Assembly: GCA_025054695.1 (NCBI GenBank)
Contig: JANWZI010000008.1
Location: forward strand, 1 to 64,000
Reading direction: 5' to 3'
Source: Myxococcota bacterium
Lineage (GTDB): Bacteria > Myxococcota_A > Polyangia > Polyangiales > JANWZI01
Length of the DNA stretch: 64,000 nt
Made by a program: the position numbers and the translations under genes. Shown here in pieces: positions 9,179-22,969 of the stretch. The first letter of the stretch is position 1. Every line of letters begins with the position of its first letter. The notes below the pieces were generated by a model. The model was not told the origin of the DNA. It saw nothing but the letters and a program-made list of their open reading frames with translations, and ran no database searches.

Positions 9179-10522
9179 GTGAGCGGGGCCGAGCCGTGGC
9201 ATGGACGCGTTGTGACCAATTCCCCCGAGGCGCCTCTCGGCGATCCGCCGCTGCCGAGACCGTTCGGCCGCTACGTCCTGGTCGACCGCATCGGCCGCGG
9301 CGGCATGGCGGACATCTTCCTCGCGCTGGATCGCACGCAGGTGGGGGCCCTGCGGCGGGTCGTGGTCAAGCGCATCCTGCCGGAGCTTTCCGGCCAACCC
9401 CAGTTCGCCGCCATGCTGGTTGCGGAGGCCAAGCTCGCGGCCTTGTTACGCCACGCGAACATCGTGCAGGTCTACGATCTGGGCCGCGTCGACGAGCATC
9501 TGTTCATCGCGATGGAATACGTCGAGGGGTTCGACTTGCATCAGCTTCTGCGGCGCCTGTCGGCCGGTCGCATCCCGTTGCCCGTCGAGCACGCCGTGCT
9601 CGTCGCGCGCGAGGTGCTGCGCGCGCTGGACTACGCGCACCGGGCACGAGACGTCGAGGGGCGACCGCTGGGCCTCGTGCACCGCGACGTCTCGCCCTCC
9701 AACGTACTGGTCTCGTTTGAGGGCGAGGTCAAGCTGTGCGACTTCGGCATCGCACGTGCGCTCGGAGCCACGACATCCGACGAGAGCGCGATCGCCCGGT
9801 CCCGGGTGGCCGGCAAGGCCGCGTACATGTCCCCGGAACAGGCGCGCGGCGAGCCGGTCGATGGGCGATCGGACCTGTTCGCGGCCGCGATCCTTCTCTG
9901 GGAGCTGCTGGCGGGTCGCCGCATGTACCGAGGGACGGACGAGCAGCTTCTGTCTCTCGCACGCGCTGCCGAAGTCCCGCCCCTGCCGGCGAGAGGGCTC
10001 CCGGACGAGCAGCGGCTGCACGGGGTGCTCGCACGGGCGCTGGCGCGCGATCCCGAAGCCCGCTTCGCTTCGGCGCGGCAGATGCTCGATGCGCTGGAGG
10101 AGTGGGCGCTCGGGGCACGGCTGCTCGTCTCGCCGCTACGCCTCGGTGCGTTCCTCACGGAGCACTTCGCCGACGAGCTGGTGCAAGTCCGCCGTGCACG
10201 GGAGCGAGCTGCGGCGGCCGCCTGGGAGTCCGCAGGGTCACGCGCGGACGCCCCCCCGCTCCCGGCGGAACCCGAGACAAGCGAGATCCGTTCCGTGCCG
10301 GAGGTGCGCGCGTCCGGTCCACGCGACGCGGCCGCCGCTCGCGATCCGACGTCCGTTCTCGCCGACCGGCCCGCGAGCCCTTCGGATGCCGAACGCACGT
10401 CGCAGCGGCCTTCGGACCAGCCGGCGGGCGAGATCGGCGTCGGCCTCCGGGTCGCCTTCTGGGCGTTCGTCGTCGGCGGCGTGTTGCTGGTCGTGGCCGC
10501 CGTGCTGGCGCTGTTGCGCTGA
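9179..10522 (+). CDS. Eukaryotic-type Ser/Thr protein kinase, C-terminally membrane-anchored
   Basis: 447-aa Hanks-type kinase. The kinase domain (about 30-310) has the glycine loop IGRGGMADIF, lysine K64 in VVVKRI, the catalytic loop LVHRDVSPSN (D170), DFG at 188-190 and the AAYMSPEQARG activation-segment end. A Pro/Ala-rich linker leads to one transmembrane helix in the last 25 residues (FWAFVVGGVLLVVAAVLALL) with almost nothing after it, so there is no extracellular sensor. The RVSP-type catalytic loop is common in myxobacterial kinases. GTG 9179 or GTG 9212 could be the start. Its 3' end faces the DUF2520 reading frame, which runs antisense into it. Confidence 0.93.
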   Translation: MSGAEPWHGRVVTNSPEAPLGDPPLPRPFGRYVLVDRIGRGGMADIFLALDRTQVGALRRVVVKRILPELSGQPQFAAMLVAEAKLAALLRHANIVQVYDLGRVDEHLFIAMEYVEGFDLHQLLRRLSAGRIPLPVEHAVLVAREVLRALDYAHRARDVEGRPLGLVHRDVSPSNVLVSFEGEVKLCDFGIARALGATTSDESAIARSRVAGKAAYMSPEQARGEPVDGRSDLFAAAILLWELLAGRRMYRGTDEQLLSLARAAEVPPLPARGLPDEQRLHGVLARALARDPEARFASARQMLDALEEWALGARLLVSPLRLGAFLTEHFADELVQVRRARERAAAAAWESAGSRADAPPLPAEPETSEIRSVPEVRASGPRDAAAARDPTSVLADRPASPSDAERTSQRPSDQPAGEIGVGLRVAFWAFVVGGVLLVVAAVLALLR

Positions 10523-21200: not shown

Positions 21201-22969
21201 GCTCGCAGCCGTTCCGCGGCGGCGTCGAGGGCACCGGCGCGGACGTGGGCTCGGGCCGCCGCGCAAAGATGGGCCATCGCTCTCGACTCGTCGCTCTCGC
21301 GCGCAGCGAGCGCTTCGTGCGCCCGAGCCAGCCCGGCGTTGTCGCCGCGACTCGCCGCGAGCAGGCGAGCGACGTCGGGGGCCCAGCCGACCGAGCGTGG
21401 GTGCTTCAGCTCGGCCTCGAGACGCCGGTCGGCGGCATCGTGGTCCGCGAGGACCGATCGCAGCCGCTCGTGCCGGTCGCGCGCGACCGCCGCCGCCTCT
21501 TCGGGATCGATGGCGCATTGCAGCAGGCGCTCGGCGGCCTCGCGCGCGGCCTGGGGCGCCGCGTGGCGCAGCGACGCGGCGAGCAGCTCGCGGAGCACCG
21601 GTGCGGGATCTGCGGCGAGCTGCGCGGCCTGCAGGTACAGGCCGCGTGCGCGCGGAAAGTCGCCGAGGGCATCCGCTGCGAGCTGGGCGGCCCGCCACAG
21701 CTCTTGTGCGCGTGCGGCCGGGGGCCGACGCTCGTCGGTCGCGGCCAGCTCGAGGCGGGCGCATACGGCATCGATGTTTCCCGTTTCGAGCAGCAAGTCT
21801 TCGAGGAGGGCACCGGCCGCGACGGGCGCGACGTCGGCGTCGACGATCTGCTGCAATTGCGCGATCGCCGCGTCGACGTCTCCCGAGGCGTGGACGTGCT
21901 CGGTACGCCGGAACGCGAGCACCGACGCGAACGGTCCCGCGCGCTCCGCGTTTTCGAGGAGCCACGCGGCCTCGACGGCCACCCCTGCGGTGTCCGACGC
22001 GAGCTCGCACACGAGCAGTCGCTGCCAGTGCAGACCGGGATCGTCGGGCATCGCGCGCAGGGCGAGCTCGAGCGCGGCGTTCGCGCGCTCGACGTCGGCG
22101 CGTCGGGCGTGCAGGTCGGCGGCCTCGGCGAGCAGAGCGACCGCACGTTCGCGCTCCGGCGAGCTGGCACCCGCGGATTCGCCCGACCCCGGCGGCATGC
22201 GTTCGAGCTCGAGCAGCCACCGCCCTTGGCGTTCAAGCGCCTCGGCCAGATCCGCGTCGCGCCCGTGTCGCCGCGCGATGCGCTCGAGCTGCTCGAGCGC
22301 GTATCGAGCGTCCGAGGCGAGCTCGGCGGCCCGGCGACACGTGGCGAGTGCCTCGTCGACGTCGCCGAGCGCCTCGAGCTGGGCGGCCAGGTCGACGAGC
22401 AGGACCGCCCGCTCTGTCGGATCGGTCGCGGCGTTCGCTCGTGCCTCCATCGCCGTGCGGATCGCCTGCGGGTCGGCAGCGCGTCGCGCGATTCGTTCGG
22501 CGGCCAGCGCGACGGCTGCCGAGGGGTGAAGGGCCAGCGCCTCAACGACGAGCGCCGCGGCGGCGTCGGGCTGGCCCATTCGATCCTCGAGCAGCGCAGC
22601 GCGGTCGAGCATCGCGCTTGCGCGTTCGGCGTCGTCGCCCGCCACTCGGGCCTCGGCCTCGTACAGGCGTACGAGATTCTTGAAAGAACGGCGGCGTTCG
22701 AAGAGCGTAACGAGCGCGTCGAGAGCTGGGCGCAATCGCGGGTCGAGGTTGAACGCGGACAGGTACTCGCGTGCCGCCTGCGCTTCCTCGGCCCCGCTCT
22801 CGAAGAGGCGACCGAGCTCGTAGTGCAAGAGGGCCGCACGCGTCCGGTCGCCGGTGCTCGCCTCGATTTCCGCGCGGAGCAGTGCCACGTGTCCCGATGC
22901 GGGGGCCTCGGATGCAGTCCGTCCGGGCGGGTTCGGTGTCGTCGGAGGCGGAGGAGGGGCAGAGGGCAT
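18248..22969 (-). CDS. Giant TPR protein (1573 aa), first gene of the operon
   Basis: 1573-aa protein. I chose ATG 22969 (MPSAPPPPPTT) because coding character begins there and a TATAGT hexamer lies 46-51 bp upstream; the frame stays open further upstream in Arg-rich sequence. After a short Pro-rich start, TPR-like helical pairs run from about 30 to 1370 (for example ALLHYELGRLFESGAEEAQA). The last 190 residues form a domain with GPIVVVGRAVSAPLTTALRW, similar in layout to the end of the 1920-aa neighbour. It has no signal peptide or membrane segment. It leads a five-gene minus-strand operon. The function is unknown; a role as scaffold for a large cell-surface or motility machine would be typical of such proteins but is not shown. 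Confidence 0.85.
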   Translation of the reverse strand: MPSAPPPPPTTPNPPGRTASEAPASGHVALLRAEIEASTGDRTRAALLHYELGRLFESGAEEAQAAREYLSAFNLDPRLRPALDALVTLFERRRSFKNLVRLYEAEARVAGDDAERASAMLDRAALLEDRMGQPDAAAALVVEALALHPSAAVALAAERIARRAADPQAIRTAMEARANAATDPTERAVLLVDLAAQLEALGDVDEALATCRRAAELASDARYALEQLERIARRHGRDADLAEALERQGRWLLELERMPPGSGESAGASSPERERAVALLAEAADLHARRADVERANAALELALRAMPDDPGLHWQRLLVCELASDTAGVAVEAAWLLENAERAGPFASVLAFRRTEHVHASGDVDAAIAQLQQIVDADVAPVAAGALLEDLLLETGNIDAVCARLELAATDERRPPAARAQELWRAAQLAADALGDFPRARGLYLQAAQLAADPAPVLRELLAASLRHAAPQAAREAAERLLQCAIDPEEAAAVARDRHERLRSVLADHDAADRRLEAELKHPRSVGWAPDVARLLAASRGDNAGLARAHEALAARESDESRAMAHLCAAARAHVRAGALDAAAERLRAVLARQPAHGYALAMLEEIHRRRGEAEEVVRLLREASEARRGSRAAEVALLLAGAEAEAAGDEATASASYEQAAEHDPTSLAPLVALDRLARRTGDRPLRLRALEALAERELAAATPGRFHLELGELYAFGARKPELAEDPLRAALDSDASGASAAIALLLPGRDAVSTGSRIAAARRLLAAAPASDFAQRLLLLEAVGVADAAAATEAASALLARAPDDPLALLARSSIATPPTEERATWLLTLGRATAEPQTKAGLLLAATRAAIAAGNPQSSADAYLVATELAESVGPRRLEAATALEETAVDGSKWSDDRLEALDARAANGPISILAASGRARLAAGRHAEAAERLRRVVDAQPDDLASWESLRVAARGAQRWNDVVEACDVLAAHVDGEARAQLLEEAAQVLMDELGDEDGAARRLREALAVDVRRPIAWHRLHDLLGARGETSELLELVDRRIDATDDPDELARLFYEQARLRRARGDLDGALASLRDVLALDETHVGALALEAEIHKAAGRPAEAVAAFRRLAAADIPPAQRRLAHLAAAAFLEKELADPAGAVRELEAIEALGLGDAALTHRIADLAERAGLDERALQALRRAAPAHHGRTRAEIERRAGRIAARLGRRDEAVDALRRALAEVPTDVESAEALVALLEPADRRATCAAFEAAVRVGLDADPLDAEALRRLRRVASWTLDADLEYRVLGALVVSGRAEPSERHAHDEHERTAARTPSGRLSEATLAELGPGPRSAVLGNAIDALSEIAAEVWPTSLDALGVGRDELVPPRQAHPLRDEIAGILAAFGAPPLHELYVGGADAVRLSIVSGRKGPIVVVGRAVSAPLTTALRWSAGREAWGIREGLGWLAGRPLAEVVELVRAALLAAGVPVSAGPPTSALVGRIEKASSRRTRRALAEAAQREGAGALEGWIVRAWRGAARAGLLAAGSLRAALDAAGLAPGDVEGVELVRFWTSQQAAVARRELGFP

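Follow-up and report, generated by a model that had tools for sequence, protein, structure and literature searches.

Conserved linkage of nadD with a pair of predicted GltI-like giant tetratricopeptide repeat proteins in Polyangiales

The closest described counterpart of the giant proteins considered here is GltI (AgmK) of the Myxococcus gliding machinery, a tetratricopeptide repeat (TPR) protein of 4132 amino acids (aa) whose gene stands in a gltI-gltJ arrangement in M. xanthus (PMC3169522), while one protein of the DUF2520 family has been described as a homolog of PanG, a ketopantoate reductase (PMC4572677). Putative relatives of both are encoded on either side of nadD, the gene for nicotinate-nucleotide adenylyltransferase, in the first 64,000 nucleotides (hereafter the window) of contig JANWZI010000008.1 of a Myxococcota bacterium assigned to the order Polyangiales (assembly GCA_025054695.1). 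A sequence-only reading of the window had proposed that two giant TPR genes, a degenerate phosphoesterase gene (here P3), nadD and a DUF2520 gene form one operon with a GTGA overlap at every junction. The five genes, all on the minus strand, and each of the four overlaps were found where it placed them, GTGA combining a GTG start with a TGA stop in each case, and a literature search returned no description of nadD linked to tetratricopeptide genes in myxobacteria. The features are as follows.

18248..22969, minus strand: TPR1, 1573 aa, ATG at 22969; first gene of the operon, a cytosolic giant TPR protein with TPR matches in Pfam
12489..18251, minus strand: TPR2, a giant TPR protein of 1920 aa with TPR matches in Pfam
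11866..12492, minus strand: P3, 208 aa; degenerate metallophosphoesterase fold, order-restricted family
11306..11869, minus strand: nadD, nicotinate-nucleotide adenylyltransferase of 187 aa
10540..11309, minus strand: DUF2520 / Rossmann-like protein, conserved part about 256 aa; PF10728 at 67.8 bits
18248..18251, minus strand: GTGA overlap TPR1/TPR2; 4-bp (base pair) overlap in 19 of 26 loci
12489..12492, minus strand: GTGA overlap TPR2/P3, the joint between modules; 4-bp overlap in 3 of 16 relatives
11866..11869, minus strand: GTGA overlap P3/nadD; 4-bp overlap in 17 of 22 loci
11306..11309, minus strand: GTGA overlap nadD/DUF2520; 4-bp overlap in 12 of 18 loci
22970..23376: intergenic region separating the divergent genes for TPR1 (minus) and an S1-type ribosomal protein (plus, ATG at 23377); presumed operon promoter region

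Gene order was read in up to 20 kb around nadD from 33 relatives of the same order (below, f-numbers are family labels of the genome sample, G-numbers are genomes and L-numbers loci; phylum-wide counts refer to 284 Myxococcota genomes). TPR2 immediately precedes P3-nadD or nadD in 21 of the 34 determinable genomes, spread over 16 genera and eight families of the order (f1, f2, f3, f4, f6, f8, f9 and f10), with NadD identities to the window of at most 53%. Within this range P3 is absent in f2, f10 and G022, which retain TPR1-TPR2-nadD, and DUF2520 is absent from the nadD locus in f9. The TPR genes do not stand at nadD in f5, f7, f12 and one f4 genome, where P3-nadD(-DUF2520) or nadD-DUF2520 is found. 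Outside the order, the order TPR1-TPR2-nadD-DUF2520 occurs in G264 (family f17, same class), whose TPR proteins group with TPR1 and TPR2 respectively in a tree of the C-terminal domain. Mis-binning of the G264 contig is unsupported, its nadD being nearest (58%) to that of G177 of the same family, a genome in which the TPR pair and nadD are unlinked. The linkage therefore is either older than the order and was lost several times, or has two separate origins. A scan with query A3 returned 18 named loci, several of them labelled Sandaracinaceae, Sandaracinus or Polyangiaceae. Accidental placement would have been indicated by close relatives carrying nadD beside other genes and the TPR genes apart; f5, f7 and f12 do keep them apart, but conservation across eight families and in a genome of another order leads us to reject accidental placement and to regard the gene order as ancient and clearly non-accidental.

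The overlaps contribute to this picture only in combination. Five more 4-bp overlaps were counted among about 20 same-strand neighbours elsewhere in the window (with a rough open reading frame caller). Because such overlaps are common here, the rarity of GTGA was rejected as stand-alone evidence; taken alone the overlaps indicate a tight operon and no more, and the signal lies in four consecutive overlaps together with conservation. No match to a sigma-70-like promoter was found across the operon region.

The block consists of two modules, TPR1-TPR2 and P3-nadD-DUF2520. The TPR genes are an old tandem pair whose overlap is mostly retained even away from nadD, and TPR2/P3, which joins the scaffold pair to the nicotinamide adenine dinucleotide (NAD) module, is the sole junction usually lacking an overlap in relatives, although its gap remains between -4 and 24 bp in all 16 loci. 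In a tree of concatenated TPR1 and TPR2 the linked pairs cluster together, apart from a second group made up of the separate pairs (f5, f12); support for the deepest split among the linked pairs is 0.16 in the concatenated, 0.79 in the TPR1 and 0.99 in the TPR2 tree. Away from nadD the pair is flanked by genes for a parvulin-like protein, ATP synthase, typA, pbpC, alpha-2-macroglobulin, RNase R and a pyrroloquinoline quinone (PQQ) propeller, names assigned by reading the sequences and not by family search; a steady partner gene was sought among these neighbours and none was consistent. Such unrelated neighbours, and the single clade of linked pairs, would fit mere gene-order inertia, that is, a TPR pair that landed once upstream of nadD and stayed through chance and a shared promoter with no functional relation. 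Yet the upstream flanks of TPR1 turned over while the TPR-nadD joint persisted, and the orthologous pair of another order also adjoins nadD, which calls for an older linkage or two origins; we consider inertia rather unlikely. A TPR pair with f12-type flanks was also observed at L107 (G146, family f38, another class), nested inside f12, and represents either a horizontal transfer or a mis-binned contig.

In the Pfam scan TPR families were recognised in both large proteins, CTP_transf_like in the nadD product, and DUF2520 with a weak Rossmann match in the last gene. TPR2 begins with a short acidic motif (DELDWDDALADWERE), followed by a long disordered Pro/Ala linker, a TPR solenoid and a GltI-like C-terminal domain (12489-13451). 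The N-terminal acidic, W-containing motif and the disordered linker recur in many TPR2 orthologs of f1, f3, f4 and f12, and the motif is possibly a docking motif. TPR1 ends in a domain of about 330 aa (18248-19240) that shares homology with the C-terminal domain of TPR2 (320 columns in hhalign, probability 98.9, E 1.9e-17), a stronger relation than the shared C-terminal layout first noticed. The domain, modelled at a predicted local distance difference test score (pLDDT) of 95, is absent from Pfam and gave no Foldseek match in the PDB with E below 0.001, those to HtpX and selecase being local only. A pseudo-protease of the M48/gluzincin type, hinted at by the order of elements and by these local matches, was dropped as a candidate, there being no significant fold match, no Pfam match and no HExxH zinc motif in the C-terminal domain of the loci searched.

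The same domain was detected in 127 of the 284 genomes, frequently in more than one protein of the giant TPR type. Its TPR2 profile matches the C-terminus of a TPR protein of at least 4036 aa at L204 (L204:2-12112; E 6e-24). The L204 gene directly precedes a GltJ-like gene (12681-13913) encoding a GYF domain and a C-terminus of GltJ/AgmX type; this gltI-gltJ pair outside model organisms matches the arrangement in M. xanthus. By way of L204, and with M. xanthus GltI taken from its description, TPR1 and TPR2 resemble GltI in being giant TPR proteins without a predicted signal peptide, in which a TPR solenoid is followed by a GltI-type C-terminal domain. They differ in having a half to a third of its length, in being encoded by two tandem genes and in their neighbours, which are rpsA, P3, nadD and DUF2520. 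Judged by domain homology TPR1 and TPR2 are GltI-like scaffolds, and they are classed as relatives rather than as GltI itself because GltJ and the glt cluster are lacking among their neighbours.

P3 had been called a degenerate phosphoesterase, and its predicted structure agrees. The protein has no Pfam match itself, Metallophos_2 reaching one member of the family at E 0.015, and its AlphaFold model (pLDDT 92) adopts a calcineurin-like fold whose best Foldseek matches are 3ck2, 2kkn, 1s3l and Vps29 (E 7.5e-7 to 1e-4). Enzymes of the YfcE/COG0622 family carry the metal-ligand motifs D-x-H, GD, GN, GH and GHxH. The P3 fold matches YfcE, MJ0936 and Vps29 of COG0622 best, but differs from them in its extra helices, with TM-scores of about 0.5, and in the metal-ligand motifs, which are missing in all aligned members (SDTH is replaced by GPxx and GHTH by YGxx). 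An active phosphoesterase was therefore rejected, and P3 is classed as a phosphoesterase-fold protein, not an enzyme. Other residues are kept in the member alignment, among them DK, LDEEDIANA, YG, R and an FxTPG stretch. The family occurs in 34 of the 284 genomes, all within the order of the window. TPR2 adjoins P3 in 16 of these 34, and 17 of the 18 exceptions belong to f5, f7 or f12, whereas P3 adjoins nadD in every genome in which both were read, which makes it a companion of nadD rather than of the TPR genes. The natural reading of this pattern is that P3 is conserved as a binding protein without enzymatic activity, the product of the ever-adjacent nadD being the candidate partner.

It was further suggested that the genes may make up a multiprotein system not described before, with control linked to NAD. 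No published description of the arrangement was found; a multiprotein system under NAD control is unsupported. In its physical form, NadD would dock on the TPR scaffold with P3 as adaptor, comparable to Vps29 on the Vps35 solenoid, and the NAD or ATP state would control assembly or activity. The long life of the linkage, across eight families and another order, is what such a complex would predict, and P3 has lost its ligand motifs while retaining strongly conserved new residues, as a binding protein would; Vps29, a binder of an alpha-solenoid, is moreover among its nearest solved folds. This last parallel is one of fold resemblance only, however, and the parts do not travel together: P3-nadD survives without adjoining TPR genes in f5, f7 and f12, TPR1-TPR2-nadD survives without P3 in f2, f10 and G022, and the joint between the two modules is the only junction that usually lacks an overlap. 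NadD, in addition, looks like a normal enzyme. NAD-linked control of the scaffold is possible, but a physical NAD-linked complex appears improbable, and it is very doubtful that P3 acts in the manner of Vps29 as an adaptor by which NadD (with DUF2520) docks on the TPR1/TPR2 solenoid, whereby NAD supply would be delivered to, or would sense the state of, a GltI-like machine.

The window nadD scores 123.5 bits against TIGR00482 of NCBIfam (cut-off 112.45) over its full length, and alignment with 1kam shows the conserved motifs GxFxPxHxxH and SSTxxR to be intact, as GGSFDPPHTGH and SSTAVR. A single match was obtained in each of 36 of the 38 genomes searched, including that of the window, so that the window nadD is the only copy detected there. 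On these features NadD appears to be an ordinary enzyme present in single copy, which differs from other members of TIGR00482 in genomic context only. No nadD match at E 0.001 was obtained in G010 and G016 of family f11 (completeness 90% and 82%); either NadD has diverged or been replaced there, or gaps account for its absence.

The DUF2520 protein matches PDB 2i76 (E 3.1e-11), and adjacency of its gene to nadD is class-wide and extends to members of another class. In the sister family f16 NadD and DUF2520 are joined in one open frame of 434-498 aa, both Pfam domains being recognised in the four that were scanned:

L182:848-2188, L183:13733-15112, L184, L185:3069-4565, L186 and L187:7154-8557: NadD-DUF2520 fusions of f16

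The fusion and adjacency are the strongest functional pointer of the whole set. They suggest that DUF2520 works with NadD, and the fusion directs attention to nucleotide cofactor metabolism. The window protein shares with PanG and 2i76 the DUF2520 domain and a Rossmann fold, but in Myxococcota DUF2520 is coupled or fused to nadD and not to pan genes. A vitamin or cofactor operon, in which DUF2520 would be a PanG-type ketopantoate reductase, NAD and coenzyme A would be synthesised together and the TPR genes would be passengers, draws on this homology and on the genome of the window, which has PanC and no PanE match. Most PanE-less genomes of f4 and f9 likewise have DUF2520, and G030 and G022, which are without it, have PanE. 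This apparent complementarity does not extend to the phylum, in which PanE is equally frequent with (about 108 of 213 genomes) and without DUF2520 (35 of 72; counted from lists, two genomes being borderline), and replacement of PanE by DUF2520 was therefore rejected as a general pattern. With no pan genes seen beside DUF2520 either, we regard a cofactor operon of this type as unlikely.

The block had been delimited at 10155, which is correct as the end of an open frame but not as that of a gene, DUF2520 homology ceasing near 10540 and the remainder running antisense to a kinase gene (9179-10522). The frame has no stop where relatives end and continues for about 370 bp across the 3' end of this convergent gene, and the extension (10155-10540) is either due to a lost stop or to an assembly error in the metagenome-assembled genome. 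Downstream of nadD, a Clp-type ATPase gene and holA recur in several families (L033, L036, L039, L042, L046, L053), some of these loci also having a kinase related to that of the window. The position of holA beside nadD resembles the proteobacterial lptE-holA-nadD order.

The explanation we favour, with moderate confidence, is an ancient two-module operon in which a GltI-type scaffold pair and a cofactor module would be linked by shared expression, and not by NAD sensing by the scaffold. The first module would consist of two giant cytosolic TPR proteins translated together, alpha-solenoid scaffolds carrying the same uncharacterised C-terminal cap. TPR1 and TPR2 may assemble together, as a heteromer, into a scaffold of fixed ratio that probably serves a myxobacterial envelope or polarity machine. 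The second module would comprise the only detected NadD, its putative Rossmann-fold partner DUF2520 and the non-catalytic P3, also a likely partner of NadD. Because the modules are joined so tightly, nadD would be co-transcribed from the TPR promoter, and the link would most likely be kept because nadD, expected to be essential, would have lost its own upstream region. Three points weigh against this explanation. Such a lock-in does not account for the separation of the modules in f5, f7, f12 and G177; conservation over such divergence could reflect direct functional coupling; and the grouping of TPR1 and TPR2 with GltI is based solely on their C-terminal domain and their TPR architecture.

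The locus reveals a conserved genetic link between NAD synthesis and GltI-like giant TPR proteins, and a C-terminal domain missing from Pfam yet present in about half of the sampled Myxococcota genomes. It also shows NadD accompanied by an order-restricted dead phosphoesterase and, through the sister family, places DUF2520 within reach of nucleotide cofactor metabolism. As co-expression, the connection between NadD and the scaffold is a useful lead. As a physical link, if true, it would be surprising, and the adaptor reading, if true, would represent a bacterial scaffold with built-in cofactor synthesis.

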